Source: Acidobacteriota bacterium (GTDB lineage Bacteria; Acidobacteriota; Holophagae; Holophagales; Holophagaceae). Taken from it: 64,000 bases of DNA. Positions 40,473 through 60,361 of this stretch are shown one piece after another (positions within the stretch are counted from its first letter, which is position 1; every line of letters starts with the position of its first letter). The position numbers and the translations under genes are program-made. Below the pieces are notes generated by a model. It had not been told where the DNA came from. It did not search any database and was given only the letters and a program-made list of their open reading frames with translations. Where the stretch lies: the NCBI GenBank assembly GCA_016192145.1, contig JACPUT010000002.1, positions 558,001-622,000 of the forward strand, written 5' to 3'.

Positions 40473-40711
40473 ATCTGTACAGATGGCAGCGGTGTTTGCA
40501 GTATGCGTGGCAGCTCGATTGAATTGTCTACCTGACAACGACGCCATTCCCAATGTGGCAACTGATCCGAATTGCTCTACCGCGGCCTCTGTCATCGTCT
40601 GGCAAAACCGGCACAAGGGACGGATTTAGCGCGTAACAGAGTCGCTCATAATTTTTCGTCCAAGCGACCAGGATTAAGTGAAAGAGGCGATCATAGAAGA
40701 GGAGGAACTTC

Positions 40712-41098: not shown

Positions 41099-41474
41099 GG
41101 CAAGGAATGGCTCTGGTCAGTGGACAACCATCGCCATCGCCATCTCTATCGTCCACACCAATCCTACCAAATAACAGTTTGATGGAGAGCTCGCCACTTA
41201 GGCGTAACCCACGGGTCGCAATTTTAGGGAGGGCTAGAAATCGCTAATATTTTTATTTTGGTAAGAGTTTAATGCTGAAAAATAGGTTAGTTAGCTATTG
41301 ACGTGGCTTTTTGGGGCGGTACCCTCGGAGTGTCTCAGCTGAGACTTTCGGAGGCCAGCATGTAGCCAGATCCATTCCAGGAAGAGAAGCGGATCAATTG
41401 ATCCGCCCCCTACAACCCCATTTCACTTGCGGCGCCCAGGGCTGGAATCCAATGCGCCGCAAGAAGGAGTCCTT
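41099..41474. other. Upstream region of the tns operon
   Basis: No gene. A+T-rich around 41240..41290, with a TTGACG box at 41298..41303 and a 14-bp palindrome GTCTCAGCTGAGAC at 41332..41345, candidate control elements for tnsA. A clear -10 box was not found. Confidence 0.45.
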
Positions 41475-42245: not shown

Positions 42246-42525
42246 CAAGGGCTCCCTCTCCCCCAGCCCTCAGGAGTCGAGAAACCATCCAAGGTGGGGT
42301 CTTCTTGGATTGGGCTCACTCTCTAATGCCTATCAAGGGCTATTTGAGGTGGATCACAGCACTCTCAACGTCATTGTCATCGATGAACTCGATGGGGCAG
42401 TGCTGAGAAGGCCGAAGATTTTCTTACTCTACGATCGTGCAACCGGGAGGGTGCTTGGTAGTTACCTAGCGTGTGAAGACCTGGAGGCGGGAAATGGGCA
42501 TCAGGTCGGAAGGCGGAGGAGGTGA
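42238..42525 (+). CDS. TnsB-like mini-protein (catalytic-core fragment)
   Basis: 95 residues. Residues 36-80 (FEVDHSTLNVIVIDELDGAV, then LLYDRATGRVLGSYLA) line up with TnsB's first RNase H strand of this operon (VQIDHTKLDVMVLDEESRKA, then LDVATRMVLGLLVT). It has the first catalytic Asp (D39) but no second Asp or Glu. It overlaps tnsA and ends 3 bp before tnsB, so it is co-translated. It may be a decayed duplication or a regulator of TnsB. Confidence 0.7.
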   Translation: MISKGSLSPSPQESRNHPRWGLLGLGSLSNAYQGLFEVDHSTLNVIVIDELDGAVLRRPKIFLLYDRATGRVLGSYLACEDLEAGNGHQVGRRRR

Positions 42526-42528
42526 GCC

Positions 42529-44400: not shown

Positions 44401-44412
44401 CAAGGAGTCGCT

Positions 44413-45330
44413 ATGACTGAACAACTGCTTGAGAAAACGTACGAACATCTAGGAGAACTGGCCTCGCAAGTAATCGAGGCTGAACCAGAGGCCCGAAAGG
44501 CATTCATACGCCAAACGAGGTGGGTCGGGTACAGCGCTGCTCGCAAAGCCCTCGGCCGGATGGAAGAGATCCTTCAGGGACCTCGGGTAGATCGAATGGA
44601 ATGCATGCTCATCATTGGCGACACCAATAATGGGAAGACCCGTCTCATTAAACATTTCCTTGAGAAACACCCCCCGAAGGAGCGGGCGGACGGTGGCTCA
44701 ACGGAAAGCCCGGTTCTCTTCATTCAAGCTCCTCCATCGCCAGATGAGAAGCGCCTCTACGCATCGATTCTAAGTCGTCTCGGAAGCCCCGTGTCGGGGA
44801 ATCAATCCGCAGGGAGTCAGTACAGTGTCCTTGAGAAAGCGATTCGCGGGTCAAATCTCAAAATGCTCATCATCGATGAGATTCAGCACTTGGTTTGCGG
44901 TAGTACGAATAAGCATCGAGAGTGCATGACCGCTCTGAAATTCATCGCGAACGACCTGAGAATCTCCATCGTTGCAGCCGGGATTCGTACAGCACATTAC
45001 GCGATTGCGAGCTTCGACACCCAAATCGAGAATCGCTTCAAGGGGATCTTGCTACCTCGTTGGACCTACGGCGAAGAACTGACCAGACTCTTATTGAGTA
45101 TTGAGAAACTGCTTCCTTTGCGGGCCCCATCACATCTAGGAGATCCAAAATTGGCTCGCCTGATCGCGGAGCTAGGAGATGGAAAGATCGGAGAAATTTG
45201 GACGCTCCTGCGCCTCGCCGCGATTGAGGCGATAGACAGTGGCAAGGAATGTATCGACATGGATGGAATCAAATCGGTTGAGGGAATCGCCCCTGCACAT
45301 CGAAGAGCTCTGCTCCATGGAACCGATTGA
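44413..45330 (+). CDS. tnsC: TnsC/TniB-type AAA+ transposition regulator
   Basis: 305 residues. Walker A GDTNNGKT (69-76) and Walker B MLIIDEIQHL (D155/E156), sensor regions ISIVAAGI and a C-terminal lid. The length fits TniB rather than the longer Tn7 TnsC. It passes target choice from TniQ to TnsB. Overlaps the tniQ start by 14 bp. Confidence 0.92.
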   Translation: MTEQLLEKTYEHLGELASQVIEAEPEARKAFIRQTRWVGYSAARKALGRMEEILQGPRVDRMECMLIIGDTNNGKTRLIKHFLEKHPPKERADGGSTESPVLFIQAPPSPDEKRLYASILSRLGSPVSGNQSAGSQYSVLEKAIRGSNLKMLIIDEIQHLVCGSTNKHRECMTALKFIANDLRISIVAAGIRTAHYAIASFDTQIENRFKGILLPRWTYGEELTRLLLSIEKLLPLRAPSHLGDPKLARLIAELGDGKIGEIWTLLRLAAIEAIDSGKECIDMDGIKSVEGIAPAHRRALLHGTD

Positions 45331-46747
45331 GTCCATCTCAATCCAAGAGACGAGACCAGAGGGCCCCGTAGGGGCCCTCTGGCTTTTCCATCCCAAACCT
45401 GAGGTTGGTGAATCGCTCTTCTCTTGGGTGAGTCGAATCGCGGAATGTCATGGAGTAAGCCTAGAGTGCTTCTGCCGAGAGGTATGGCCGGGTGAGGACC
45501 TTTTGTTTAGTGACCTTGAGCGAAAGCCGCCGTCACAGGTCTTGGAGGCCCTGGAAGGCGGAACGGGCATTTCACGCGAACGCTTGCTGGAGATGTCTTT
45601 GGTTGGCCTCACAAAGCTGGTTCTAGGGGTTGAGCTCTCGACTAAGGGTTGGGTCCCATGGGTTGTTCCCGCCATGGCCCGACGCAAGGAGGAGTTTGGG
45701 CTTCAGTTTTGCCCGGATTGCCTGGCCATGGGGGACCCACCGGTATTCGACCTTTCATGGCGACTCGCCTTCGTGACCATATGCCCGATACACAACCGCC
45801 TGCTTGTAGACCAGTGCCCAAGATGCAAATTGGCGCTGAACCCGAGAAGGCCGGATAGGAAGAAGAGGGCGATAGACGACGCAGTCCCAACCTACATGTG
45901 CCACTACTGCGGGTGGGATTTGAGGAAGCGAGCTGGGGACCCAAAGAGCCAGAGGCCCATGCGAGGGGTGAAGTCACTTCAGGGGAGCCTTCTCGCTGCA
46001 GCAAGAAATGGGTGGTTCGAGTCTCGGTGGGGAGAGACGATCCATTCGATCCCATTCTTCAAAGGGCTACAGAGAATTCTTCGGCCCCTAGTCTCTAAAG
46101 GCGCGATCGGCCGTTTCCGTGGGGAGGCTGTCGGAGAGAGTGGGTTGATAGACCCATCAGATAGAATCCGGTCTGGTGCACGTGGGACGTTGTTCGAGCG
46201 TCAAGACGTGCTATGTCGCCACCAGGTTCTGGCACTTGTGAACTGGGTGCTCGACTCCTGGCCCGACCGATTTGTCTTGGCTTGCCAGCGATGTGGGGTG
46301 AGATGTGCGCGCCTGACGCAGGATTGCCATGAGGAGGCCCCGTACTGGATATGGAAGGTCGCTCATGAGCATCTTCGGTACTATCAATCGAGGTGGAGGC
46401 GTGAATTCCTACCTACGGGTTTGGTGGTTTCGTATCTTGCTTTGGGGGAAAGGATGACGAGCCCTGGCCTCGCACGAATTCGAGATCGGATTGTGTTTAC
46501 GCAGGAACATCCAGAGCTGTGGGATGACCCCTTCATGCTCGCTGCCGCGATGAGAGCAGCTGGACTGTATAGCCAAAAATCTGCGATTTCAGTCTTAGGG
46601 CAGCACTGTTCTTGGCTGATTGACGCTGTTCAAGCCACAAAATCTGCCGTTCAGCTCCCTGGGGGACTTGTCGCGGTGAACCTGAATGGGAAGGTGAAAA
46701 TCTTGAGGCGCGCCAGAAAGCTGACTTCCAATCCAACGGTGTACTAG
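45317..46747 (+). CDS. tniQ: TniQ/TnsD-family target-selection protein
   Basis: 476 residues from ATG 45317, inside the end of tnsC. N-terminal PEVGESLFSWVSRIAECHGV and a zinc-ribbon region with CPDC, CPIH, CPRCKL, CHYCGW. Such proteins pick the target; as no guide RNA system is present, this one is the best candidate for choosing comEA. The C-terminal half is unlike known domains and could bind DNA. Its early coding part contains a strong hairpin (45356..45382). Confidence 0.9.
   Translation: MEPIESISIQETRPEGPVGALWLFHPKPEVGESLFSWVSRIAECHGVSLECFCREVWPGEDLLFSDLERKPPSQVLEALEGGTGISRERLLEMSLVGLTKLVLGVELSTKGWVPWVVPAMARRKEEFGLQFCPDCLAMGDPPVFDLSWRLAFVTICPIHNRLLVDQCPRCKLALNPRRPDRKKRAIDDAVPTYMCHYCGWDLRKRAGDPKSQRPMRGVKSLQGSLLAAARNGWFESRWGETIHSIPFFKGLQRILRPLVSKGAIGRFRGEAVGESGLIDPSDRIRSGARGTLFERQDVLCRHQVLALVNWVLDSWPDRFVLACQRCGVRCARLTQDCHEEAPYWIWKVAHEHLRYYQSRWRREFLPTGLVVSYLALGERMTSPGLARIRDRIVFTQEHPELWDDPFMLAAAMRAAGLYSQKSAISVLGQHCSWLIDAVQATKSAVQLPGGLVAVNLNGKVKILRRARKLTSNPTVY
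45356..45382 (+). promoter_or_regulatory. Strong hairpin at the tnsC-tniQ junction
   Basis: 12-bp perfect stem, CCAGAGGGCCCC and its complement around a GTA loop, followed by CTTTTCC. It looks like a terminator but lies 40 bp inside the tniQ coding region, so it may reduce tniQ expression. Confidence 0.6.
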
Positions 46748-46780
46748 GATCATTGCTTTCCGATGAACCATCGGGTAAAT

Positions 46781-48283
46781 AGTCGGCCCTGACAAACCCC
46801 TCTGATGGTTTCATGCGATCCCTGGGGTGGGCTGAGAGGCCCCCAGGGCTTCGAGTCGGTCGAGCATGGCCTGCACGGCCGCCCTGGCTTCACCCGAAAG
46901 CAGGCACAAAAGGGCCCTGATACGGGCCAGGATCTTCCGGATATTGTGGCCGGCACCGCAGAGCAGGGCATTCATGGCGTCGCCCTTCATGCCCTTGAGG
47001 AAGTTCCGCCCGAGCATTCCGTCTGCCTTCATGTGTCCGATCTCGGGTTCGATGGCGGATCGTCGTCGGAGCTGGCGTTTGAGCGTATCGCCGAGTTTCC
47101 GGGTTCCGCTGATGAGGACTCGACTGCGCTCCAGGGGAATGCCGTGCCCCTGGTATCCCTTGTCCACAAAGGTCAGGCTTGGCGTCTTACCGGTGAGGCG
47201 CTGCACCTGGTCGAGCTGGCCTTCGAGGGTGTGGCCATCGTGGGGGTTGCCGGGGCAGCTGTGGATACCGATCGCGAATCCTTCCTTGTGGGTCACCGCG
47301 AGGCTGACCTTCACGCCGAACTCGTAGGGGCGATGCGCCTTCCCCTTGGCGATGCATTCCACTTCCGGCGCGTGCAGGCTGTAGACCTTGCCCTTCGTCT
47401 TGCGCTTCTGGGTGAGGATCAGATCCGACAGGATGAACGTCCATCGGTGCTTGGCATAGGCCTCGTCGCTGATCTTCCGCTCCGCATCCCGCATCACCCG
47501 ACCCGCGAGGGTGTTCAGGCGCTTCTGCTCCCGCCGGGCTCGCTTGAACTGCTTGGCCTTGGCGTAGCGGGCATGCTTCAGGAACGAATGCTTCACGGTG
47601 CGCGTGTAGGACTGGCGCAGTTCCACGCCTCCGACTTGGCGATGCGCACCATGGCCGCGTGTACCTTCCGGTACAACCGGGCATCCGTGGGATGGGCCAC
47701 GGCCTTGGGCATCACCGTCGTGTCCACGATGACCTTGTCGAGGCTCCGTTCCGTGATCGTCTTCGTGCGCTTGCCCGCCTCGATCGTGATCTGGAGGAGC
47801 TTCTCACAGCCCTGGGCGCCGATGCGCTTCCGCCACTTCGTCATCTGGCTTGGGTTGATCGGCAGCTCGTGCTGGAAGTACTCCTCGCCGCAGAAGAACT
47901 GGTAGTAGGGGTTCTGGACTCACTTCTGCACGACCTCCTCGTCCGAGTGGCCGAAGGTGTGTTTGAGAAGGTGGAGGCCGGCCATCAGCCTGATCGGCAC
48001 GCCGGGGCGCCCGTTGTTGGGGCAGTACAGGCCGCCGAATTCCGCCTCCAGGGCGGCCCAATCGAAGACGCCCGCAAGCCGGTACAACTCCTGGCGGGGA
48101 TCGAGCACCATGCCCAGGCTCCAGCCGATCATCGGCTGCTCATGGGTCGTCCGCTTGGTCATCGGCTTCATAAAAATCCACCAGGAATCGGGGGGTCTCC
48201 CCTGCATTTCTGGTGGATTTTATAGGCGAAAAGTTCCGCGAACGCTTGATGCTACTGGATCTATGGGTTCGTCAGGGCCGACT
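46781..48283 (-). mobile_element. IS5-family insertion sequence, 1503 bp, inactive
   Basis: Terminal inverted repeats AGTCGGCCCTGAC at both ends and a 4-bp duplication AAAT (46777..46780 and 48284..48287). The transposase gene inside is broken. It was inserted after tniQ, close to another remnant of the same family. Confidence 0.85.
46811..48171 (-). pseudogene. IS5-family transposase with an in-frame stop and a frameshift
   Basis: Three pieces: a first part (FDWAALEAEFGGLYCPNNGR to EEVVQK), an in-frame TGA at 47920..47922 where Trp is expected, a middle piece (VQNPYYQFFCGEEYF to VRIAKSEAWN), and, after a frameshift near 47640, the last part (ELRQSYTRTVKHS to the end). The last piece has FVDKGYQGHGIP and HMKADGMLGRNFLKGMKGDA. 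No active protein can be made without repair. Confidence 0.85.
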
Positions 48284-48287
48284 AAAT

Positions 48288-48547
48288 ACCCTTGAGCCGA
48301 AGGATGAGGTCGCCTCTGCTAAGCCGAGCCCAAGCCCACTCGTAGTGCAGGGCTGCTGGGACTGAACTTCCTCAAGGGCATGAACGGCGATGCGATGAAT
48401 ACCCTGTTTTGAGGCGCCGGCCACAAAATGCGGAAGATCATGGCCAGGCTCAGGCTTCTTTGGCTCTGGTATGCCTGGCTGCTGGCCGGGCTGGAAGAAC
48501 CAGAGTCGTGTCCTCAATCGACGTAGAGGGGTTATTTTGGGCCGACT
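48288..48547 (+). mobile_element. Remnant of a second IS5-family element
   Basis: On the plus strand, LNFLKGMNGDAMNTLF, a stop, then GAGHKMRKIMARLRLL matches the transposase end (NFLKGMKGDAMNALL). A right-end inverted repeat GGGCCGACT ends at 48547. It is in the opposite orientation to the complete IS next to it and has decayed further. Confidence 0.7.
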
Positions 48548-48609
48548 AGCTGGTCCGGCTCCGATTACCATGAACAACCTTGTTGGCCCCAACAACTAGG
48601 CCTTAGCTA

Positions 48610-50007
48610 TTAAATATCCCTTTTAAGATGTTTAGTGCGTGTACGTTTGGTTGAGGTCTTTTCGTCAAAAAGGGCGGGTTGCTCAGAAATTCCTTTATTG
48701 ACACGCTTAAATTTCGAAGCAATGGAATTGATCTGGGATAACGCATTTTGAAGCTCTTCTAAGCGGTCATTCTCATTTGAGGTAGATTGGCTTTGGAATG
48801 GACGTTCTTGATTGTCATCGAGTATTCGCAACGGAATTGAAATTCCGGGAAGTAGAGCTAAGCGATAACCCCATTGGGAGAATCTAATCGATTCAGTAGT
48901 AGTGATTTTTAGTCGCTGGGTTTTTATCAAGAATTCAATCAAAGATAATTCCAATGACCCTCTATATGGAAAGGGGGTATGTTCTCTGATGTTCATAAGG
49001 AGTGATAAACCGAGAGAATTGAAAGTTGTTTCAATTTTATTATTTGGGTCAATTGCTGTAAACAGGATAAACCAGATAGCGGTTTTAGCTTCTTCAATCT
49101 TCCTAATGCCAATTTGCTCTAAGAAGGCAAAATTTCCTTTAGCTAACGATGCATACAGGTATCCAAAAATTGGAGATAGATCTTCGCTCCCATATGATCT
49201 AAACCCAGTATTCCGAACTAAATCCTCAAGAGATCTAAGGCGTTGTTCTTTTGTTCCAGCAGTCGAGCGATCTATGATTTCCCTTAATTCATCATATTCA
49301 AGGTTGGATACCTTTGAAAGAAACAAAAGTAGGTCTTCAAATCTTGTTGATGCTTCTATCAAATCCTTAATTGGATTATTTATCTTATGGTCAGTGCTGC
49401 GTTGGGGAAGTAGGTCATGAAAAGCATTCAATAAATCTTGTAAAAAAGTTTGGATTGGAGGAAGTGGCAGATTTGAAGATACCTTAACTGTCTCGAGAGC
49501 GTTAAGTGCGTACGTGATCTTTTGTTTAGAGTACCCAACTGTGTACCCGCGAAGGATCGTGTAGGCCAAAGTTCGTTGAGCTTGGCGTAAACTTGGGCTG
49601 AATTGAGAGTTTCGGGATTGGGTTGAGATTAACAGCTCACTAAAAATTAGTCCAAGGCCGATGCGAAATTCCGCCGGTTTTAATTCTTTTTGATCGAGGT
49701 GAATCCATTCAAGAGTTACATCATGTGGTTCAACAGCACAAATGTTTGTGAATTGAGGGATCGTCGAGACAAAGGTTGAGACCCACGCCAATAGATCTTC
49801 ATGCGCATCGGCCGATGGCGTTGAAATCACCAGCGGAAGTTCACTGATCGGATCCTTGATGTCGGGCCAAATTCCGTAGTATCTGGTCTTGTCGGACTCG
49901 ATTTCTTGTGCGACGTCCGTTGCAGACATTGCTCGCAACCCATCTGGAAGACAGGGGTTTTGCAAGAGCTTGAGTAGATCGTTCCGATCGAATGGGTGGA
50001 TCCTCAT
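48610..50007 (-). CDS. Unknown protein, third gene of kinase-helicase operon
   Basis: 465 residues, mainly helical. N-terminal MRIHPFDRNDLLKLLQNPCL, long helical stretches (LRSLEDLVRNTGFRSYG), and a basic C-terminus (KRTRTKHLKRDI). No catalytic motif or known family seen. It starts 12 bp after the helicase stop and is A+T-rich like its two partners and unlike the rest of the element. It could be the effector or DNA-binding part of the system. Confidence 0.75.
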   Translation of the reverse strand: MRIHPFDRNDLLKLLQNPCLPDGLRAMSATDVAQEIESDKTRYYGIWPDIKDPISELPLVISTPSADAHEDLLAWVSTFVSTIPQFTNICAVEPHDVTLEWIHLDQKELKPAEFRIGLGLIFSELLISTQSRNSQFSPSLRQAQRTLAYTILRGYTVGYSKQKITYALNALETVKVSSNLPLPPIQTFLQDLLNAFHDLLPQRSTDHKINNPIKDLIEASTRFEDLLLFLSKVSNLEYDELREIIDRSTAGTKEQRLRSLEDLVRNTGFRSYGSEDLSPIFGYLYASLAKGNFAFLEQIGIRKIEEAKTAIWFILFTAIDPNNKIETTFNSLGLSLLMNIREHTPFPYRGSLELSLIEFLIKTQRLKITTTESIRFSQWGYRLALLPGISIPLRILDDNQERPFQSQSTSNENDRLEELQNALSQINSIASKFKRVNKGISEQPALFDEKTSTKRTRTKHLKRDI

Positions 50008-50019
50008 TTTGGTCTGGCC

Positions 50020-51174
50020 TCAAAACAGATCTGCGAGCTGGGGGGGTGGGGTGTCCTCTGAGTCAAGGTCGAGGATTCCTTGATGCAAGTATCGCGGGAG
50101 CTCGGCTTCATGGTAGATGGTGAGAGATGTTTTTGCCCTAGTAATCGCTGTATAGGCGACATTTCTTTGAAGCTTCCCAAAATGACGAATCTCCTCGGCC
50201 GCTAGTAGGTGAACGGCACGAAATTCCATTCCTTTCGCAGAGTGAATAGTGGACAGTACAATTTGTTTATCTGGAGAGAATTCGCCATGGCCTTGGCGGC
50301 CATGATATATAATCTCTTCACCGTATTCTGTGCTATTTGCAAGATTCATTACAAACTCAGCCGAGTCATTGGTTGGGATTAGGATGCCGATTAATTCATC
50401 GGGGAAGGCCCTTCGTTGGAGGTTTATTGCTTCCATAGCCTTTGAAAACTGTAAGGCCAGGCCCCCTTGGACAAGGTTCACCGACGATGGGTTTTCCTCC
50501 TCATCGTAATTATTTCCAGGGAGCATGGGCTTATAGTCTTCTCGATTTTGTGCAATATTATCGGCTAACTTGGCGATGGAGTGGCCGTTTCGGAAATTAT
50601 GAACCAACTCAATTCGCTTGGGCGCTAATTCCCGTAGCGTACTAATTGGGTCCTCTGTTCTGTAAATTTTTTGACTAGAGTCTGCAGTTGCAAATATTTG
50701 TTTTGAAATCTTACCAAATATCTTTATTTCATCGGGTGTTAAATCATGAGCCTCATCGAGAAGGACACATTCAAAGAGGTTCGATAATTTATATTTATTT
50801 ATAACTTCAAATACTTGTTCAGTAAGTGCCTGCCGGCGTCCCATAAATGAGATATCGCCAGGCAAGTCCGGATAACTTTCATATTCATTTAGAAAATCCG
50901 TTTTCCATTTTTCAACTGTTGAGAAAAGTTCTGAATGAATTGAATATTGATTGATTCCAGTTTGTAAAAAATCGCATAATCCCTTGCCCATCATCATTAC
51001 GCGAATGTTCGTTTGTTTTGAAGTAATCAAAAATTTTGCCCTAAGGAGCAAGAGATTTGTTTTTCCAGAACCCGGAGGACCTGTAAGGAGTACGCTTTCT
51101 CCTAGGGGTAGCCTGGGAACCTGGCGCTGCTCTCCTTTGAGCTGCTTTTCGTTAGTCCACCAGATTCCATTCAC
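50020..51174 (-). CDS. Compact UvrD/Rep-like SF1 helicase
   Basis: 384 residues from GTG 51174 (AGGAG upstream). Walker A TGPPGSGKTN (31-40), Walker B CVLLDEAHDL, motif III ATADSSQKIY, IV HNFRNGHS, V VLSTIHSAKGMEF and VI AYTAITRAKTSL. All core motifs are present in a protein about half the length of UvrD, without large 1B/2B insertions. It overlaps the kinase stop by 4 bp. An unwinding or DNA-sensing role in a defence module is likely. Confidence 0.88.
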   Translation of the reverse strand: MNGIWWTNEKQLKGEQRQVPRLPLGESVLLTGPPGSGKTNLLLLRAKFLITSKQTNIRVMMMGKGLCDFLQTGINQYSIHSELFSTVEKWKTDFLNEYESYPDLPGDISFMGRRQALTEQVFEVINKYKLSNLFECVLLDEAHDLTPDEIKIFGKISKQIFATADSSQKIYRTEDPISTLRELAPKRIELVHNFRNGHSIAKLADNIAQNREDYKPMLPGNNYDEEENPSSVNLVQGGLALQFSKAMEAINLQRRAFPDELIGILIPTNDSAEFVMNLANSTEYGEEIIYHGRQGHGEFSPDKQIVLSTIHSAKGMEFRAVHLLAAEEIRHFGKLQRNVAYTAITRAKTSLTIYHEAELPRYLHQGILDLDSEDTPPPQLADLF

Positions 51175-52577
51175 GACACACTCCTATTTAGTAAATCAAC
51201 CAGATCCACCCATCCTTTAGATTCTGCAGTCATTATTCTTTCATCTGAAATGGCAAGGGACCAAATATTGATTAATGATCGCATGAAGGCTGTTTTGAAA
51301 AGACTAGCCTCAAAGTGACCTTTGTAGATAGTTGTCAAGGTAAGTTCACCCAAAAGAATCTTGACCTTTTGGTTATCTATCACCCCAAGTAGGGACCCCA
51401 CTGAGACATGAATTACGTTGAGCTCAATTCCGAGGAGTTCTACTCGGAGGAATATTCGAAGGTCGCCATCAAAGCCAATAGAAGGTGAGCCAGAAAATGA
51501 GAGCATCAATACATTGCTTGTGACGCTATTCTTAATTGTTTCAAAAATTGCAGGTGGTAAAAATTCTTCTTTGCTGATTTGGCTTCTCGTAATGGAATCA
51601 ATTTTTTCAACTGCCCCATTTAACCGATTTCTCATTAGGATCTCAGCGTTAACCCGGTTGTCACCCTCTGAGGTGAGGCGCGCTGAGATCTTTTTTAGGG
51701 CTCTCTCTGTATCATGATTTGGAGGTGCTAGCAGGAAGTCGTCCCACTTCACAATGTCAAGCCTTACCAATGGGTCCTTCTCTAGGCAGTTCTTCGTAAG
51801 GGCGATTAAATCACTTGATACATCATCGGCTATAACGCTAGGTTCCTCGTATAAAATAGCCTCGACTAGTCTTGGGTAAGGAGATCTATTATTAAATAAC
51901 GGCTGCCTCATTATCATGTCGTGAAGGACTCCACCGAGCTGATAAAAGGTAATAGCCCGCCATCCTTCAATTGTTTGCTGCTCGGTTCGTCGCAAAAACT
52001 CTGGTGATCCGTACCTCAAAGTACCGATGAAGTGCGGCTCTTGGGTGTCAGTCACGTTCCCAGCATCATGCGGGCGTATCACACCAAAATCCAGAAGAAC
52101 TAGTGTCTTTTCATCGGAAGTAATCATGATATTGCTTGGTTTAATATCTCGATGTGTGAAACCGTTTTTTTCCAAAAATAACGCGGCTTCTGCGAGTTGT
52201 GAAATTAGTGGTTTTATTTTTGCTCTTGCTAGAGTTGGAATTCTCTTTTCGAGTTCTGTCCCATCAATCAGTTCCATTTTTATGTAAAAAACTTGAAGAT
52301 CGTCCTCATAGCCAGCATCAAAAACCTGAATAAGGTTTGGATGACGTAGGTTCTTCAATTTCATCTCGCGCTGGATCCGCTCTTCCTGCACAGACCTTCC
52401 ATGTGCCTCTACTATGTCTTTGTCAAATATCTTTAATGCGTATGAGATCCCTGCTGGGTCCACTGCCCGAAATACAGCGGCCGATTTCCCGTTTCCGACC
52501 AATGACTGGATAGTCAGGTCCCGAAATGCCTTGCCTTGGAATCTATGCAACCACTCTGCAGCTAACGCCTGATCCAT
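51171..52577 (-). CDS. Ser/Thr protein kinase with a unique C-terminal domain
   Basis: 468 residues (AGGTG upstream of ATG 52577). Intact Hanks-type kinase: K49 (YALKIFDK), E71, catalytic loop HRDIKPSN (142-149) and DFG (163-165), activation segment ending GTLRYGSPE. The Gly-rich loop is atypical (VGNGKSAAV). Residues about 290-468 have no known domain. It heads a leftward three-gene A+T-rich operon. It probably senses or signals infection to its partner proteins. Confidence 0.88.
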   Translation of the reverse strand: MDQALAAEWLHRFQGKAFRDLTIQSLVGNGKSAAVFRAVDPAGISYALKIFDKDIVEAHGRSVQEERIQREMKLKNLRHPNLIQVFDAGYEDDLQVFYIKMELIDGTELEKRIPTLARAKIKPLISQLAEAALFLEKNGFTHRDIKPSNIMITSDEKTLVLLDFGVIRPHDAGNVTDTQEPHFIGTLRYGSPEFLRRTEQQTIEGWRAITFYQLGGVLHDMIMRQPLFNNRSPYPRLVEAILYEEPSVIADDVSSDLIALTKNCLEKDPLVRLDIVKWDDFLLAPPNHDTERALKKISARLTSEGDNRVNAEILMRNRLNGAVEKIDSITRSQISKEEFLPPAIFETIKNSVTSNVLMLSFSGSPSIGFDGDLRIFLRVELLGIELNVIHVSVGSLLGVIDNQKVKILLGELTLTTIYKGHFEASLFKTAFMRSLINIWSLAISDERIMTAESKGWVDLVDLLNRSVS

Positions 52578-52970
52578 TATTTCACCTGGGACAAGTGATT
52601 TCCCGCAGCCTTATTTCGCGGAGGCCTTATGTGCTGCGTCGTTGTCGGAAGTGGGGCTATGAATTTTGGCATCTGACTCGTACTCAGGTGTTGCTTGTCA
52701 TGTTTGTTTATTGCTTTGTGAAGGATGACCGACAACCTATTCCTTGGCGAGTGGATTTCCGATCAAACCTCAGGCCACGGGTGTGGCGCCTTCGTTCACT
52801 GGCCTGCCGGGACCGATCCCTTTTCGATGCCCGCCGGCTGAGGAAACCTAACCTGCCAACCTTGGGTATCGAACTTTCGATCCGAAACTTGAAGCCGGCT
52901 TCCCCTCAGACCGACTCCACAGGAAGGGCTAGCTCCTAAAAATTGAGTGCGAGACCCTTTGTGTAAATCC
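52578..52970. other. Non-coding region between kinase start and right end
   Basis: No convincing gene. It holds the promoter region of the kinase operon, though clear -35/-10 boxes were not picked out, and G+C-rich sequence around 52770..52930 that may be a relic of earlier cargo. Confidence 0.45.
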
Positions 52971-53030
52971 AAATATTGCAATTGAATCGCATAAACCATC
53001 TCGAATTCGCATTGTTAAATGACGTTAACA
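52971..53030. repeat. Right transposon end with TnsB-type sites
   Basis: Read leftward from 53030: TGTTAACGTCAT, then TGCGAATTC (starting at 53011) and TGCGATTCA (starting at 52991), i.e. the same first-site offset and 20-bp pitch as the left end, but with fewer sites. Confidence 0.87.
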
Positions 53031-53199
53031 GCGGAAGCAACACGGTGGCTTTCGGCGGCCGGAAGAAGTGATGCACGTGAAGGGCATCGGCGAGAAGGGC
53101 TACCAACGGATCAAGGCCTACCTGCGCGTGGCGGGTGCCGCCGCGCCGGCTTCAGGCTCCCCCAAGACACCCGCCGCCATTTCCGGCGCGAAGCGGTAG
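53031..53199 (+). pseudogene. comEA: ComEA-like protein, 3' part
   Basis: The first 5 bp are the right copy of the GCGGA duplication. From 53036 the frame reads QHGGFRRPEEVMHVKGIGEK, then the second helix-hairpin-helix (GYQRIKAYLRV) and an Ala/Pro tail to TAG 53197..53199. It has no start of its own. It continues the frame cut at 466. Confidence 0.92.
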
Positions 53200-53210: not shown

Positions 53211-53717
53211 ATGCTGCGCATCCCGGGAATCCCGTCCCACCGCCAGAAGGGAACCACCCTGGCCGAGGTCATGGCCGTCACGGGCATCCTCGGGGTGCTC
53301 GCGGCCGCGGGGGTCTCCACCACCCGCTTCAATGGGTGCGATCTCGCCGTGGCCCAGATGGAGTTGAAGGGCAGCCTGGATCAGGCCTTCAATGAAGCCC
53401 GGGCCCGGGGCCGCAACATCACCGTCTCCATGTCCAACGACAAGAAGATGGATGTGCTGCCCGTGCGCCTGCCCCGCACCATCCGGTTCGGCAAGCCCGC
53501 CCACATCCCCCTGCCGCCAGGTGTGGCGGCACCCAAGGTGGCCGCCAAGACCGGAGAGGCCCACCCCAGCATCACGGTGACGCCCCGCCGCACGGCCACG
53601 GCGGCGCTCTGGTTCCTGAACGATGGCCAGGAGGCGATCTGCATGCGCCTCAACGGCCATGGGAGCGTCCTGATGTACCGTTGGCGCGTGAGCCTCAACC
53701 GCTGGGTGAGGGTCTGA
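53211..53717 (+). CDS. Type IV pilin-like pseudopilin (GspH/FimT)
   Basis: 168 residues. Prepilin site KG-TTLAE with Glu5 and a hydrophobic helix (VMAVTGILGVLAAAG), then a beta-rich FimT/GspH-like domain. It starts 11 bp after the comEA stop and its stop overlaps the radC start, so comEA, this pilin and radC form a host operon. Minor pilins of this kind act in DNA uptake or secretion. Confidence 0.82.
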   Translation: MLRIPGIPSHRQKGTTLAEVMAVTGILGVLAAAGVSTTRFNGCDLAVAQMELKGSLDQAFNEARARGRNITVSMSNDKKMDVLPVRLPRTIRFGKPAHIPLPPGVAAPKVAAKTGEAHPSITVTPRRTATAALWFLNDGQEAICMRLNGHGSVLMYRWRVSLNRWVRV

Positions 53718-54292
53718 TGCGCATGCTCGATCTCTCGCCCGACCAGCGCCCCCGCGAACGCCTGATGGCGGGGCAGGGGGAATCCCTCTCGGATGCGGAA
53801 CTCCTGGCCCTGCTCTTGGGCAGTGGCACCCGCGGGGCCAATGCCGTGGAAACGGGGCAGGAGCTCCTGGGTGCCTGCGGCGGGCTCGCGGGCCTGTTCA
53901 AGCTCGGCTTTCCGGAGTGGACGGCCCTTCCCGGGGTGGGGCCCGCCCGGGCCGCCAAGCTCTGGGCCGCCCTGGAGGTGGCCCGCCGGGCCACCCGCGC
54001 CCAGGCGCGCCCCCGCATCACGAGCCCCAGGGCCGCCGGGGACTACCTCCTTCCGAAGGCCCAGGGGTGGACCGAGGAGCGCTTCGGACTCCTGGCCCTC
54101 AATGCCAAGGGGGACCTCCTGGCGGAGCGCATCCTCAGCCAGGGCACGGCCACCGCCACCCTCATCAGCCCCCGCGAGTTCTTCCGGGAGGCCCTCCGGT
54201 ACGGCGCCACCTCCGCCCTCGCCTGGCACAACCATCCCAGCGGGGACCCCACCCCCTCCCGGGAGGACATCCAACTCACCCGCCGGCTCCAG
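53717..54292 (+). pseudogene. radC: RadC homologue, truncated by a second transposon
   Basis: 192 codons kept: the N-terminal HhH part (LLALLLGSGTRGANAVETGQ, LPGVGPARAAKLWAAL) and the JAB/MPN core up to AWHNHPSGDPTPSREDIQLT-RRLQ. The last 30 or so residues, including the DHLV(I/L)G region, are lost at 54292. No 3' part is found in the rest of the window. ATG 53717 overlaps the pilin stop. Confidence 0.88.
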
Positions 54293-54327
54293 TGTCAATT
54301 CCACAAGCCAATGATAATTTCCACAAG
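54293..54327. repeat. Left end of the second transposon with repeated sites
   Basis: After TGT, two copies of a TTCCACAAG motif (54297..54307, AATTCCACAAG; 54316..54327, AATTTCCACAAG) with 20-bp pitch, the same phasing as TnsB sites but another sequence than in the first element. Confidence 0.75.
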
Positions 54328-54532
54328 TCGACGAGACTGGTCCGCCCTAGGAAATCAGAGGGTTAACGGGCGATGCAAGCAGCATTGGCCTCAAAACCGG
54401 GAATCCTAAGGAGCGCTCTAGCGCGCTTGGATCCGCATTGGAAGTGCCTTCGGGCGAGAAAGCAAAACGGGCGCAGATCCACTCTTGGAGCGGATCCGCG
54501 TCGGACACCATGCAACAAGCATGGAGGTCTTT

Positions 54533-55000
54533 ATGGCAAGCAGGAAATCACCGAGGTCGCTTCGGCCAGCGGTCAGCGAAGTCGCAAGTGTGGCCGCAGT
54601 GGCATCGGTCTTTGGTGAGCCGGAAATTGCGCCAAAGCCATTGGACGCGGATCTGCTCCGATTCCACCCTGATCAAATCCCTGTCCCAGAAGCTGACGAC
54701 TTGGCTGGAGCGCTGACACTGGCTCTAGGCATTGCCCTGTCCATTCACCAAGTTCCCCGCGACAAGGATGATTACTGGGCGTTATCGAGTGGGATTGCTT
54801 CGGTGCTCCTGCGGTTGGCGGAAGTTCATCCCGAGATGGCGATTAAGGCAATGGCCAGCGCCAGGGATGCATGCCAGGTGACTGGCCCTGGATCGAGGCA
54901 GGAGGGCCCCGGAAGGAACCTATTTGTCCCGGTCAACGTCAAGGTATGTTCGGTGCCTGGTTTTGGGGATCTGGTGGCCCGTACATATGGGGTGGACTGA
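54533..55000 (+). CDS. Unknown protein between transposon end and tniQ
   Basis: 155 residues (GGAGG before ATG 54533). Disordered start, then helical sequence (DDLAGALTLALGIALSIHQV, SGIASVLLRLAEVHPEMAIK). Convergent with tniQ, 6 bp apart. No family recognised. Confidence 0.5.
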   Translation: MASRKSPRSLRPAVSEVASVAAVASVFGEPEIAPKPLDADLLRFHPDQIPVPEADDLAGALTLALGIALSIHQVPRDKDDYWALSSGIASVLLRLAEVHPEMAIKAMASARDACQVTGPGSRQEGPGRNLFVPVNVKVCSVPGFGDLVARTYGVD

Positions 55001-55006: not shown

Positions 55007-56575
55007 TTAGGCGACCTTCCCCAGTTTCGGTTTTGGCTTCCATCCATGACGCATCAGGAACCGGTACACCGCGGATTCGGTGATGGACTTCCCCGTGTGA
55101 TCACTGATTGCACGGCGAACTTCGCGCGCAGTGATCGGGATTCCGTTCCTTTCGCCTTCCCAGAATGCTTCCATGAGGCGCCCTTCTTCTTCGATGGACA
55201 TGAATGCACGCCCACGCGGGTGGTTGTAATCAAGGTCTTTGACCGCTGGGATGAATGGGATCCCGTGGATATTAGTCAGTGCTGCTGGATCGTTGGCCAT
55301 TGAAACCAGCTTGGGGAGCCCGGGCAGAATGTTGCTTCGCTGAGTTCCGGCGGAATAGAAACCCGCATCGCGCATTGCCAGCGCAAGTGCATCCAGATCC
55401 GATGTGAGATTTGAATTCCTTCGGATGAATTCGATCTTCCGGGCGAGGTCGCCCAACCGGGCGCTTTGGACGCGCTTCGCCAACCTTGCATAGGAATCCA
55501 CCGAGCGCTTTTGCTTGCCGGTGGCGGGGTCCCTCCATTGGGCGTATTCGACCTTCAGTTCCCCATCTGCGACCTTGGCTAGCCAGTAAGGCGTTTCGCC
55601 CCGTCGGTCTTGGTGAATGCAATTGGACCAAACGCGGGCCTGCTTGCAGACCCGGATGAACCGGATCGGCCATTCCTCCATCAGCCACGCCGTAAACCCC
55701 AAGAGTTCGGCCCTAGTCGCGGCGGGCAGGAATTCAAAGCTACGCCCCTTAGGCCATTGGCTGACCGGCAGCGGGACCGCGTGCCTACCTAAAACCCCAG
55801 TGATCGCTTGGTTCAACTTGTCGGCAGAAGCTTTCGCCCCCAGCATCTTGGTGATTTGGTGAATCCCATCGAACGCCAGGCGGGAATAGGTCATGCCATG
55901 GCCTTTGATATCCATGCACCCTGCTTCAAGCGCCTCCTCCATTCGGCCTTGGAGCTTAATGGATAAGCGGTCGAGGTGGGTTTCTCGCTTTGCGACCTTT
56001 AGTTCCCCTTTCGGGATGTCCCGAAAATCCATGCCGCACTTTCCACAAACCGTGAGCCAGTGGTTGGCAGGATCAGGCCGTGGCGAGGTTAGGTCAATGG
56101 GGTGTCCGCAGCTTGGGCAGGAGTCGATGAGTTGGATTCCATGCTTGGTGCAGGTGTTCACGAAGGCCAGCCGCCACTTGAGGCGGAAGTGGGGGGTTTT
56201 CCCGTGTTCATCAAGGCAGATGGGGCAGCACTGCTGGCCTCCTTCGGCTTCGGGGAGAGCCCAGCGCATCCTGCCCGGGAGCCCTTGGGAATTCAGGTGA
56301 TCATCAAGTCCTTCCAACGTAAGGGCGCGAAGGGCTTCGGGCGATTGCCGGGTCTTCGTTACCAGTACTTCCAACACCCATTCGGGGATTGATCTGTCCA
56401 AGGCCAGCTGCCAGACCCTTTTCCCTTCCCAACCCACTTTCAGCAGATCGTGAAAGCTGATTCCATTGGCCCCGGCGATCCGGTACAGCCATGAAATCAG
56501 TGACTCTCCCTTGACCGGGATCGGGTGGGCCGGCCAAGGACGGTCTGGGACTGGGGCGCGGTCGACCTTCGACAT
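55007..56575 (-). CDS. tniQ: TniQ/TnsD-family protein with C-terminal HTH
   Basis: 522 residues. N-terminal PVKGESLISWLYRIAGANGI and zinc-ribbon cysteines (CCPICL, CTKHG, CPSCGH, CGKCGMDF). The C-terminal 45 residues (AREVRRAISDHTGKSITESA then VYRFLMRHGWKPKP) look like a helix-turn-helix/winged helix of the IS630 type, an added DNA-binding unit that could direct insertion to radC. 2 bp after the tniB stop. Confidence 0.9.
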   Translation of the reverse strand: MSKVDRAPVPDRPWPAHPIPVKGESLISWLYRIAGANGISFHDLLKVGWEGKRVWQLALDRSIPEWVLEVLVTKTRQSPEALRALTLEGLDDHLNSQGLPGRMRWALPEAEGGQQCCPICLDEHGKTPHFRLKWRLAFVNTCTKHGIQLIDSCPSCGHPIDLTSPRPDPANHWLTVCGKCGMDFRDIPKGELKVAKRETHLDRLSIKLQGRMEEALEAGCMDIKGHGMTYSRLAFDGIHQITKMLGAKASADKLNQAITGVLGRHAVPLPVSQWPKGRSFEFLPAATRAELLGFTAWLMEEWPIRFIRVCKQARVWSNCIHQDRRGETPYWLAKVADGELKVEYAQWRDPATGKQKRSVDSYARLAKRVQSARLGDLARKIEFIRRNSNLTSDLDALALAMRDAGFYSAGTQRSNILPGLPKLVSMANDPAALTNIHGIPFIPAVKDLDYNHPRGRAFMSIEEEGRLMEAFWEGERNGIPITAREVRRAISDHTGKSITESAVYRFLMRHGWKPKPKLGKVA

Positions 56576-56577
56576 GG

Positions 56578-57513
56578 TTAGGCCGCCGGAATGGCGATGG
56601 GCGAAGGGGTCTCGGGATCAGGAAGGTCGGCCGTGGCGAGATTGCTTGGGTCGTAACCACATCCCCCAATCACCTTCGCGTCGATGCGTTCCCTTTTTGT
56701 CCTAATGGCGTGGATCGTGGCCCGCCGCATCAGCTTCGTCACCCGGCCCGTTCGACCACTGCACAGGTTGTGGATCAGCCCCGCCAGTTCAGGCTCGACG
56801 AGCCCCGATGGGTGCTTTAAGGGGAGGACTGATTCCAGGCCCGCAAGGAAACCCTGGAATTGTTCGTTGGGTTCCCAAAGGGGCAGTTCCCATGGCTCAA
56901 ACCGATCGATCATCTGCTCGTCAATCAAAATGGCATTTTGCGCCTTAGGCACACCGGCACCCACAATGGACACCCCAAGGGTGTTGGTGAGATTCTTGAG
57001 GACGTTCAGGAACTGATGATGGTTCTTGCTACCTCCCGCGATGGAATGGTGGACTTCATCCACACAAAGAACTTTCAGTCCGATGGTCTGGACTACCTTC
57101 TCCAAGGTGGATTCCATCTGTCGGATGGAATAGGTTTCCCTGAAGGGCGCATTGATGGCCCGAAGAATGTTCGCCAGAAACCGCGCTTCGTGGGGTGTAG
57201 GCGGGGCAACGACATAGGCTACCGGGATGGTCGATCCACACCCATCGGACCGTTCGACGGACGGGTGCATCATGGCCACCCGCTTTAGAACCCTGGTCTT
57301 TCCATGGTTCGCGGGAGCGACTAGGAGCATGCATTCGGGCCTGGCAACGTAAGGGGATTCGACTAGTTCCTTTACCCGATCCAGCACCCTTAGCGCAGTG
57401 GGATAGGGGATCCATCGGTCTTCCTGGACGAATTGGATTCGGGTTTCGTCGTCTTGGGCCATGAGCGGCTGGGCAAGCCCGCCAAGATGGGAATATGTGA
57501 GGGGGTCCTTCAT
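56578..57513 (-). CDS. tniB: TniB-type AAA+ ATPase
   Basis: 311 residues from ATG 57513 (AAGGAG upstream); an upstream TTG start is less likely. Walker A APANHGKT (66-73), Walker B VLCVDEVHH, and C-terminal regulatory helices. Same role as tnsC of the first element; sequence clearly different. Confidence 0.92.
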   Translation of the reverse strand: MKDPLTYSHLGGLAQPLMAQDDETRIQFVQEDRWIPYPTALRVLDRVKELVESPYVARPECMLLVAPANHGKTRVLKRVAMMHPSVERSDGCGSTIPVAYVVAPPTPHEARFLANILRAINAPFRETYSIRQMESTLEKVVQTIGLKVLCVDEVHHSIAGGSKNHHQFLNVLKNLTNTLGVSIVGAGVPKAQNAILIDEQMIDRFEPWELPLWEPNEQFQGFLAGLESVLPLKHPSGLVEPELAGLIHNLCSGRTGRVTKLMRRATIHAIRTKRERIDAKVIGGCGYDPSNLATADLPDPETPSPIAIPAA

Positions 57514-57544
57514 GTAAGTACTCCTTGGCGTCCGATTGACGCAA

Positions 57545-60361
57545 TCATTCGATCCCAACGCAGGGGAGGATCTCGCCCGCGGGTTTCAGGGATTCCAAGG
57601 CCTTGGGTCGCGCGGCGGGCTTAGAGATCGCCTTGGGGTGTTTCACGGCTCGTTTCTGATCGCGGTTCCGGCGAACTTCATTGCGACGTGCCTGAGAGGA
57701 CTTTTCCCGCGCTGCGGCTTCGATCTTTCGATTCGCCAAGATGGCGGCGAAGCGAATCTCTTCATTCTTTTCATCGCTGCAGTTCTTTCGCTTCAGTTTC
57801 TGGGTAGCCTTCCATTCCCAGAGGGTGATCCCCTTGGGATGAGCGGTATTCCGCATGGGGATCACCAGGTAGTTGTTGGTTTTCGGGTCCAACAGGTACA
57901 CCTGAGAAATGTCTGCAGGGTCCCGGCGGATGACAAAGTCACGCTTTTCCTTCGGATTTTTGGGGCACTTGGCGTTGTAGAAGGCCACGAGGATGTCGTC
58001 GTGGTACTGCAGGTCATCAATCTGGACTCCGTATGAGGGATTGACCTTCCGTTTGAAGAAGGGCAGGAAATCCATCCGCGTGCGGGGGGTATCCGGAAGG
58101 ATGTCGGGGAGGCCGCATGGCGGCGTGTTTTCATCACCGTTGATTCCCCGCTCCCAACGTTCAAGGGGAGTCTCGCCATCCAATTTGTCGTGGGGCCGGT
58201 TGTGGTAATTGCCTACGATCAGATTGGCGGTCCATTGCTCAAGCTCTTCGATTGTGAGGTAGGCATACTTGCGCGAATTGTAGTCACCGCGTTCCGCGAT
58301 GGACGCGAAGGTCGTTCCGTCCAATTCGCGCAAAGCTATGCTAAGGGTGCCCATGAAGCGTTCGATGTGGGCCCCATACCGGGGCTTCTTCACCGCGCGC
58401 CATTCGATGTTGAACCCGTAATCTTGTCCAAGGGCGATGAAGAAATCGCCTCGGAATTCCTTGGCGTTGTCGCCATGGATCGAACCGGGGACCCCCCAAC
58501 ACGGCCAATCGGCCTTGCATTGATATTCCGCAAGCAACTTTTCCTTCGTCATGAAGGCCTTGTACAAGCACGAGCCCAATGAATCGTTGCCAGGGGCTTC
58601 GTAGGAAATGTGGAACCCCACCACCATTCGGCTGTAGACGTCGATCATCACGGTGATCCAAGCGCGGCCGAGGTGCTTGCGGGTTTCCGGATCCACGAGG
58701 ATGACGTTCATCTTCGTGTGGTCGATCTGGACATAGGCGAGAGGGTAGTTAGCCCCAGGGAATTCGCCTTTCACGACCCGGAAAGCCTGATTCGCCGCCG
58801 CCTTCCCCTCACGCCTACGAATCCGGGTTTCATCGTCGACCCACTTGATCCGATTCCGGATGGTGTTTGTGGATGGCCATGGCTTGGGAAGGTTCTGTTT
58901 TTTGCATTCATCGTGAAACCAACGGGCAGTAGCCGCTGGGGTCGGCTTTTTTCGCGACAGGAATACGCGGTCGATCGCTTCAGCAATGAGGGATTCGAAT
59001 CTCTGAACGGTTTGATCACTATGGTGGTCGGCGACGCCTTTGCTTTTGCTTAGGCGGGGCTTGCCACGACCACCTCCGGATTTGCCTGGGGCAAGGGCGG
59101 TCGTCAGTTCACCGCAGTCGGCAAACCTACGCAGCAACCGGTAAATCGTAGTGATGCTGGTGTCGAGTTCCTTTGCGGCCGCAGCGACCATGGCATTGTC
59201 CCGTTGGACCCCCAGCAGGGGGCGAAGGATCGCGGCCCTCTGGATAGCCTTCTTCGCGTCTTCCTCGTCCAGTTCCATAAAATGTGGGAGCGTCGGGGCG
59301 AGGGGTTCCGTGGGAACGTAGGGTTTGAGGGACGAGATGCTGACCCGTTCCTGCATTCCGTTTGCTTGGTACTGAACACGGACTTCTTTTGAACCGCAGA
59401 CGCGTTGGATGTGAGCTCGCTTGCCATCCACTACGACCTCGAAGCCCGGTTTGAGACGGAGCCGCGGGGTAGAAACGGATGCAATCACCACTTCTTTGGG
59501 TGGCATCGGCACGGCTCGGGTTCGCAGCGGTGGTCCCGCAGGCCCCCAGTTGAACCTCAGGTCGGGTTCGGTGGCATGGTGAATCACTGAAGCGTTGGTC
59601 AAGGGGATCGCAAGGTCCGTCCAGACTTGGCGCGTCCCGATCAGGTGCCACAGATTGTGGACGATCTGGGGGTGGAATTCTTTGTCCTTGCAGACCATGC
59701 CCATGAGTTGGTCAACCGTGCATTCGCGTTTTCGAAGCAAGGTGTCCAACATCGCCATCCCCCATTGGGGGGCCAATCCTCGACGGAGGTGCGGACGCAG
59801 GAATTTGAGGTTGTCCAGGAATCCATCGACCCGAATTTCCTGTTCCGTAAGGAGCCTAAACGTCCAACCTTTATGGGCTGCGTAACGGCGGGCGGCGTGG
59901 AAGCGTGCCTTGAACTTGGCGAAGTCCCTGATGAGGATGGCGCGGGGCTTCACTTCCACAAGCCACGGGCGGGGGGTAATGCCAGTGAAGCGATCTGGCT
60001 TGAAGGTGATGAGGAGGTCGGGGGTGTAAACCCGGGCCCGGGGCTTCCCCTTCTGGGTAGCCGTGTAGGTGATGGAAACGGGTTGTCCCACGAAGGACTT
60101 CACCGTGGGGTCCATCTCCGCCAGGATCATGGCGTCACGTTCGAGGGTGCTTTCGAACCCTTGGGAGAATTTTCCCTTCAGGGTGTAAAGCATTCCGGTG
60201 ACGCTGTTGTGGTTCTTCGGGATCTTCCGGACTCCACGTTCAAGCTCACCCGGGAGGGACAGCAGCACCGTCTTCCGCTGGGGGCGTACGTGGGTGGATT
60301 GTAGGGGGCTGGGGTCCGCGACCTGGTGGTCGGCGCCCCGGGTGGAAACTTGGAAGCTCAT
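57545..60361 (-). CDS. tnsAB: TnsA-TnsB fusion transposase
   Basis: 938 residues from ATG 60361 (GAGG upstream). The N-terminal 200 residues are TnsA-like with E74 (STLERD), D115 (YTPDLLI) and E136/K138 (LVEVKP). The rest is TnsB-like with D547 (QIDHTKMNV), D631 (HGDNAKEF) and E667 (AHIERF). The single chain performs both strand cleavages, allowing cut-and-paste movement. Unlike the separate tnsA/tnsB of the first element. Confidence 0.93.
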   Translation of the reverse strand: MSFQVSTRGADHQVADPSPLQSTHVRPQRKTVLLSLPGELERGVRKIPKNHNSVTGMLYTLKGKFSQGFESTLERDAMILAEMDPTVKSFVGQPVSITYTATQKGKPRARVYTPDLLITFKPDRFTGITPRPWLVEVKPRAILIRDFAKFKARFHAARRYAAHKGWTFRLLTEQEIRVDGFLDNLKFLRPHLRRGLAPQWGMAMLDTLLRKRECTVDQLMGMVCKDKEFHPQIVHNLWHLIGTRQVWTDLAIPLTNASVIHHATEPDLRFNWGPAGPPLRTRAVPMPPKEVVIASVSTPRLRLKPGFEVVVDGKRAHIQRVCGSKEVRVQYQANGMQERVSISSLKPYVPTEPLAPTLPHFMELDEEDAKKAIQRAAILRPLLGVQRDNAMVAAAAKELDTSITTIYRLLRRFADCGELTTALAPGKSGGGRGKPRLSKSKGVADHHSDQTVQRFESLIAEAIDRVFLSRKKPTPAATARWFHDECKKQNLPKPWPSTNTIRNRIKWVDDETRIRRREGKAAANQAFRVVKGEFPGANYPLAYVQIDHTKMNVILVDPETRKHLGRAWITVMIDVYSRMVVGFHISYEAPGNDSLGSCLYKAFMTKEKLLAEYQCKADWPCWGVPGSIHGDNAKEFRGDFFIALGQDYGFNIEWRAVKKPRYGAHIERFMGTLSIALRELDGTTFASIAERGDYNSRKYAYLTIEELEQWTANLIVGNYHNRPHDKLDGETPLERWERGINGDENTPPCGLPDILPDTPRTRMDFLPFFKRKVNPSYGVQIDDLQYHDDILVAFYNAKCPKNPKEKRDFVIRRDPADISQVYLLDPKTNNYLVIPMRNTAHPKGITLWEWKATQKLKRKNCSDEKNEEIRFAAILANRKIEAAAREKSSQARRNEVRRNRDQKRAVKHPKAISKPAARPKALESLKPAGEILPCVGIE

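Follow-up and report, generated by a model that had tools for sequence, protein, structure and literature searches.

A Tn7-Like Transposition Module with a Winged-Helix TniQ in the radC Gene of an Acidobacteriota Bacterium

An Element Inserted in radC

The window is a stretch of 64,000 nucleotides from a bacterium of the family Holophagaceae (Acidobacteriota). Near one end of it, the radC gene is interrupted by an element whose tns operon lies directly beside the 5' part of the gene. The following features can be read there:

53717..54292, + strand: 5' part of radC, from its ATG start to the cut after the Q codon of ..LTRRLQ (PF04002 positions 1-92)
54288..54292, + strand: target-site duplication TCCAG, 5 bp; the second copy lies on contig C16, ahead of GCCGCC
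54293..54362, + strand: element end in the window, TGTCAATTCCACAAG.., containing two TnsB-site-like repeats TTCCACAAG, one from 54299 and one from 54319
54533..55000, + strand: small convergent gene, 155 aa, with an all-helical model and without a known family; it adjoins tniQ in 3/3 radC-type elements
55007..56575, - strand: tniQ, TnsD-type target selector, 522 aa (PF06527 in Pfam, 9.2e-23; model core matches TniQ/TnsD structures)
55031..55216, - strand: C-terminal winged helix of TniQ, residues ~454-515, like that of IS630 transposases (from HTH_33, NF033545 and likeness to a protein of relative G026)
56578..57558, - strand: tnsC, TniB-type AAA ATPase (PF05621, 4.2e-52, and PF13401 in Pfam)
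57545..60361, - strand: tnsAB fusion, 938 aa from the ATG at 60361 or 954 aa from a GTG at 60409

In the window, radC runs to ..CGGCTCCAG and is followed, from 54293, by TGTCAATTCC... The remaining PF04002 positions (89-118) are found on the separate contig C16, where the junction reads ..GAAATGACA, then TCCAG, then GCCGCC. The far end of the element begins TGTCATTTCTACTAG on this contig, where ..GTAGAAATGACA is followed by TCCAG and the remainder of radC. The two ends are mirrored (TGTCA...TGACA), that is, of the TGT/ACA type. The element was originally predicted to sit in radC, and it does: the gene is split between the window and C16, and TCCAG is duplicated. The element comprises at least 10,524 bp on contig C1 plus 7,627 bp on C16, with an assembly gap between them. 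A candidate element end near the tnsAB start (~60.6 kb) was rejected, as there is no end-like repeat at that place and the other radC part is on C16.

Repeats of the type TTCYACNAG lie close to both ends and are predicted TnsB sites from their pattern and position. Across the whole window, a similar pattern is not enriched over chance: it has 21 matches against 15.65 expected, a number reached by 11 of 100 shuffles.

Conservation of the radC DNA was compared over three cut genes and 25 motif-matching intact ones of 33 loci, giving 28 rows on the 5' side and 27 rows on the 3' side. On the 5' side it is lowest in the ten bases beside the insertion point (0.81, vs 0.84-0.94 farther out); on the 3' side, an even lower value, 0.71, is reached in block 51-60. 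Such a pattern would agree with recognition of DNA away from the insertion base, on either side.

Transposition Genes

The operon is arranged in the order tnsAB-tnsC-tniQ on the minus strand. The genes tnsA, tnsB, tnsC and tniQ occur together, so that the Tn7-like gene set is present. The predicted fusion of TnsA and TnsB is borne out by one uninterrupted frame, whose longest form runs from 60409 to 57545 (954 aa). It contains the TnsA-like nuclease domain PF08722 at residues 100-189 (4.3e-18), a weak rve match, under its cut-off, at residues 578-672, and Mu-transpos_C at residues 781-848 (all Pfam). The ATG at 60361 is the better start, because the fusions of two relatives begin close to that point. 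Across the three fusions, the acidic residues E90, D131 and E152-V-K, which we take to be TnsA-type, and D563, D647 and E683, which we take to be DDE-type, are invariant.

By sequence, the nearest TnsAB of solved structure belongs to PseCAST, which the abstract of its report assigns to the type I-F CASTs. It had also been proposed that the fusion makes heteromeric TnsA/TnsB unnecessary. This is a fair point, but natural TnsAB fusions are already known (PMC8188705, PMC11406308, in excerpt), and a fusion says nothing about targeting.

TniQ and Its C-Terminal Winged Helix

Like a TnsD-type selector, TniQ has a core and a long C-terminal region with a helix-turn-helix (HTH); the sequence supports one HTH only. 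The predicted C-terminal HTH can be recognized by HTH_33 at residues 482-515 (1.7e-4). The whole protein scores 21.6 bits against a curated cut-off of 25, and the C-terminal fragment alone 25.4 bits. The same domain is found, under the cut-off, in the fragments of both relatives that share this type of TniQ (E 0.0095 and 0.049; 13.7 and 16.0 bits).

Several matches relate the domain to IS630 transposases. Positions 50-113 of NF033545 (IS630 transposase) match residues 454-515 with E 0.0012, at 18.4 bits where 100 are set for a whole transposase. An IS630 origin was first suggested by a protein of relative G026 that is 37% identical to the TniQ tail over 67 columns (BLAST). This protein has 167 aa, carries HTH_33 (2.1e-12) and HTH_29 without a TniQ domain, and matched only the C-terminus of TniQ, weakly. 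It is taken as a piece of an IS630-type transposase, a name given by inference.

The AlphaFold model of TniQ has a mean pLDDT of 77 and shows three helices between residues 461 and 509; right before the winged helix it is poor, with pLDDT below 50 at residues 436-457. The model core aligns with solved TniQ/TnsD structures with Z up to 14.9. The top Foldseek match, TnsD chain 8v32_J, which we take to come from the type I-B2 / I-D CAST subfamily, reaches Z 14.6 over residues 5-516, but with an rmsd of 21.7. The winged helix alone matches solved structures weakly, with a best Z of 4.8.

All three radC-type TniQs retain the winged helix. The C-terminal fragments of the two relatives are 59% and 49% identical to that of the window, compared with 48% and 44% for the whole proteins.

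Relatives at the Same Target

TniQ homologues were searched for in 100 relatives, in 396 phylum genomes under a strict threshold, and in 77 genomes of the family. Matches were found in 5, 2 and 7 genomes, respectively, counting the window genome each time. The type with the winged helix is present in 3 of the 77 family genomes, namely the window genome, G029 and G048. The proteins of G029 (48% identity) and G048 (44%) match through the C-terminus, and each of these genomes also has a TnsAB fusion, a TnsC and the same small convergent gene. When a profile of four TniQs was run against the genome contigs, 14 loci were obtained, among which only those of G029 and G048 match to the query end; the other 12 show 26-32% identity and none matches past residue 370. 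Close relatives were not found in viral contigs. Among plasmids, 289 records have TniQ matches, all below 60% identity and all with a query coverage short of 80%.

In G048, radC is cut at the identical base: ..CGCCTCCAG is followed by TGTCAC.. at one end, and ..GTGACA by TCCAG and GCC at the other. Both radC parts are on a single contig, separated by a 60,174-bp element that contains the tns operon and has the same orientation as in the window. The window genome and G048 share the TCCAG duplication, and their elements carry different cargo. In G029, radC is again cut at the identical base (..TTGCGT, then TGTCAC.., with element end TGTCACTTCC), and the local DNA, TTGCGT, differs. There the cut radC and the tns operon are on different contigs, and the insertion is read at one end. 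The same radC base is thus used in 3/3 elements, and the orientation is readable and shared in two of them.

A radC gene is detectable in 63 of the 77 family genomes; the other 14 showed none. Among the 63, only the three genomes with the winged-helix TniQ have a match that stops at model position 92. The probability of this agreement by chance is 2.5e-5 as a bare count that ignores kinship. Other partial radC matches occur in ten genomes (G023, G031, G035, G042, G044, G051, G054, G429, G433 and G438), seven of them alongside a full-length match. Full-length radC is found in same-genus genomes of the window genome (G001), of G029 (G008 and G016) and, many times over, of G048. Because radC is intact in these genomes, the three insertions look like separate events.

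A Sister Clade in comEA

A second Tn7-like element lies beside the first. It is inserted in comEA, two genes upstream of radC:

340-466: 5' part of comEA, upstream of the neighbouring element
467..53030: the neighbouring Tn7-like element, an insertion of 52.6 kb in comEA with the duplication GCGGA
41427..46747, + strand: separate tnsA, tnsB and tnsC and a tniQ without HTH (tnsA and tniQ recognized by Pfam; tnsB and tnsC by BLAST likeness to their radC-type counterparts)
53031..53199, + strand: 3' part of comEA, cut by the neighbouring element
53211..53717, + strand: gene separating comEA from radC, pilin-like as judged by eye from its translation

The span of the neighbouring element follows from the positions of the two comEA parts. 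This element was said to be a different solution, and the description holds: TnsA and TnsB are separate, the target is comEA, and no HTH was found in its TniQ up to E = 10, in a search whose HMMER filters drop most matches above ~0.1.

TniQs of this sister type occur in three genomes: in the neighbouring element of the window, in G044 and in G025. They are 41-43% identical among themselves, compared with 30-34% to the winged-helix type. Both types align to about residue 435, and beyond it only the radC type has the winged helix. comEA is detectable in 65 of the 77 family genomes. It is cut in 3/3 sister-clade genomes and whole in G029 and G048. The duplication is GCAAG in G044 and GCGCA in G025. 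The insertions in the window and in G044 lie within 2 bp of each other in the same orientation. The insertion in G025 goes against this simple picture, being 15-17 bp upstream in the opposite orientation with TGGAAC ends.

TniQ type and target gene agree in 6/6 elements, for G029 across contigs, as had been expected if the HTH type follows the target gene. Winged-helix TniQs at unrelated places were sought as well and were not found; radC is cut in all three genomes that have this type. A more distant TniQ in G437 (29% identity, residues 15-187) falls in neither clade as far as tested, and both radC and comEA matches of that genome are full. So far as can be read from sequence, genes, ends and duplication, the shared base (at both ends in two elements, at one radC end in the third) and the association of TniQ type with target are in place.

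Other observations were made at these loci. The comEA-type element of G044 has two TniQ genes of 370 and 464 aa (L015:8805-11308), which could represent two targeting pathways. In G438, a single open frame of 146 aa joins comEA residues 7-55 to radC positions 35-118 (C251:17140-17517); it may be the deletion scar of elements at the comEA/radC locus. Within the neighbouring element, an IS-type transposase insertion with an apparently broken frame is seen by eye at 46811-48225, between the tns and cargo genes. The cargo itself, judged by eye, presumably includes metal-efflux-type genes and a Wadjet-like four-gene set at 34181-39795.

Cargo and Other Inserts

The radC element of the window carries a gene for a HEPN (RiboL-PSP) domain protein at 60696-61322, and near it, on the other strand, one for a ribbon-helix-helix protein at 61693-62112. 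Ten cargo frames of this element compared with PADLOC gave one weak match, to PDC-S14.

At the end of C16 lies a gene for a XerC/XerD-like integrase of 341 aa (L003:16434-17482) that scores under the XerC and XerD cut-offs. It ends right before ATGAAGGATAACAAAAGGTTATC, a sequence at the contig end that contains an inverted repeat. The palindromic site of 23 bases next to the integrase was initially interpreted as a cassette site, and no copy turned up in viral contigs. The identical 23-mer recurs in the G029 element, at the start of a cargo gene (L013:10589), and nowhere else among 60 genomes searched; two matches with three mismatches elsewhere in the phylum look like chance. The site may be a recombination site for cargo.

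In G044, radC has an insert of ~14.5 kb at another position (L047:3100-17600), with three tyrosine-recombinase-like frames seen by eye. It also holds genes that, by eye, presumably resemble a CBASS-type defence set.

Mechanism and Alternative Explanations

The operon can be read as the transposition module of a protein-guided Tn7-like transposon whose TniQ works as a TnsD and homes, chiefly by means of its winged helix, to a fixed base in radC. We put the probability of this reading at about 0.6. In the simplest, Tn7-like account, TniQ would bind the target, TnsC would bridge, and TnsAB would insert. The N-terminal core of TniQ would recruit the TnsC ATPase, and the radC DNA would be bound by the C-terminal region of TniQ, mainly through the IS630-related winged helix. 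TnsC would then activate the TnsAB fusion, which would cut and join the element ends in a simple cut-and-paste insertion that leaves the 5-bp duplication. What we infer here is that TniQ binds DNA, that the winged helix plays the main part in this, and that the transposase is active.

The agreement of TniQ type and target in all six elements is as expected of protein-guided homing. It is likely that the winged helix itself reads radC. The added HTH had been offered as an explanation for targeting radC without RNA guides. The part about guides is supported, with a fixed base in 3/3 elements and no cas gene, known RNA family or tandem array in the part scanned. The role of the HTH as reader of radC is less secure. 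Since the sister clade homes to comEA without an added HTH, TniQ can home without one, and the winged helix is not isolated as the cause because the TniQs of the two clades diverge along their full length and the small gene likewise goes with the radC clade. The sample of winged-helix elements has three members.

One alternative is that both clades read their target through the shared helical core of TniQ (~residues 200-435), whose specificity would have changed by ordinary divergence, and that the winged helix merely adds non-specific DNA affinity or a contact to TnsC/TnsAB. TniQs of the comEA clade end just past this core and yet home to one gene in 3/3 genomes. That the winged helix is kept in every radC-type TniQ, is more alike than the whole proteins, and has no counterpart found in the comEA clade makes this unlikely, though it is to be taken seriously. 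Another candidate for the true selector or co-selector is the small convergent protein, acting like TnsF of Tn6022 while TniQ only bridges to TnsC. Its gene is present in 3/3 radC-type elements, and tblastn at E 0.01 finds no copy in the comEA-type loci examined. However, the gene is convergent to tniQ and outside its operon, and the all-helical protein has no Pfam or NCBIfam family match and, with Foldseek, no solved-structure match below E = 1. An arrangement of the TnsF type with a short tniQ is not what is seen in the window, where tniQ is long and the adjacent gene small and convergent; partner-dependent TniQs tend to be short, according to excerpts of PMC10293859. A selector role for this protein is improbable.

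RNA-guided insertion, as in a CAST whose effector acts in trans or lies in the unassembled middle of the element, might be suspected from the likeness of TnsAB to that of PseCAST and from the gap between the two contigs of the window element. It is very unlikely: Rfam gives no match in window positions 54000-64000, a search of 40000-64000 shows no tandem array, and none of 20 repeat families, out of 44 in 52500-63000, is evenly spaced, the last two by methods other than a dedicated CRISPR finder. Nor was a cas or TnsE domain found in the 21 of 52 frames of at least 130 aa scanned from the assembled G048 element, or in the cargo frames scanned from the window element, which is split by the assembly gap. 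Just as hard to sustain is a single ancestral insertion inherited by three hosts, which would leave the shared site uninformative on targeting. All hosts do belong to one family, but their same-genus relatives have full-length radC, the relatives' TniQs are only 44-48% identical to that of the window, cargo differs between the window and G048 elements, and the local target sequence of G029 differs as well. Protein-guided homing by TniQ, chiefly through its winged helix, is the reading preferred here.

Evolution of Target Choice

A wider interpretation is possible, if doubtful. A Tn7-like selector might have changed its home by taking up an IS630-type DNA-binding domain, going to comEA without it and to radC with it. 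Taken with the comM elements already known, competence and recombination genes might then be a recurring home of Tn7-like elements; natural transformation of the host would be switched off, and the element would in this way escape removal by recombination. A domain gain that goes together with a switch of homing gene from one sister clade to the other would help in understanding the evolution of target choice. The selectors of Tn7-like elements are modular, and two sister types 1.3 kb apart in one genome invite domain swaps.

Both radC and comEA would be new integration sites for Tn7-like elements, and with comEA the competence-linked targets, such as comM, would come to include a DNA-uptake gene. 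The excerpted text of a 2024 review names glmS, tRNA genes, parE, yhiN and comM as Tn7-like sites (PMC11406308). A text count finds no mention of radC in that review or in Faure et al. 2023 (PMC10293859). The excerpts of the latter describe TnsD-like proteins with long C-termini that fold into HTH domains and map TnsAB fusions on a tree. Tn7-like transposons are reported from four Acidobacteria species in excerpts of Benler et al. 2021 (PMC8649781), and the interruption of comM is treated in connection with transformation in those of PMC11472951. From sources likewise available in excerpt, Tn558 and Tn559 are known to reside in radC (PMC9616846), and a recombinase trio was met there once (PMC3414803); in the excerpt of PMC3401170, RadC appears as island cargo only. 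Neither radC nor comEA is given as a Tn7-like target among the matches listed from the open-licence literature, which covered titles and the starts of abstracts. Within this literature, the radC target, the IS630-like module and the comEA sister clade look new; TnsAB fusions and TniQ/TnsD proteins with C-terminal HTHs are already known.

Comparison with Known Systems

Tn7 with TnsD, which homes to glmS, resembles the radC element in TnsA, TnsB, TnsC, a selector with a TniQ core, the 5-bp duplication, one fixed site and, in the two members where it is readable, one orientation. Tn7 inserts downstream of a gene, whereas the radC element interrupts a coding gene. It further differs in its fused TnsA-TnsB, its IS630-like C-terminal domain and the lack of a TnsE domain in the frames tested.

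The type I-B2 / I-D CAST subfamily, as excerpted from PMC11406308, is alike in its fused TnsAB and long TniQ/TnsD. Its TnsD homes to tRNA genes instead of radC, and no Cascade was found here. In sequence, the TnsAB of the radC element lies closer to the TnsAB and TnsB chains of type I-F.

Tn6022 / AbaR elements home to comM with TniQ and TnsF. Like them, the elements described here interrupt a transformation-linked gene: comEA in the sister clade, with radC at the same locus. Here, however, TniQ is long and its operon has no TnsF-like gene.

The Tn554 family (Tn558, Tn559) and tyrosine-recombinase trios share the target radC, according to excerpts of PMC9616846 and PMC3414803, but their recombinases are unrelated. 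IS630-family transposases (HTH_33) have a winged helix probably homologous to that of TniQ, which here, without the IS630 catalytic domain, is an appendage of the selector.
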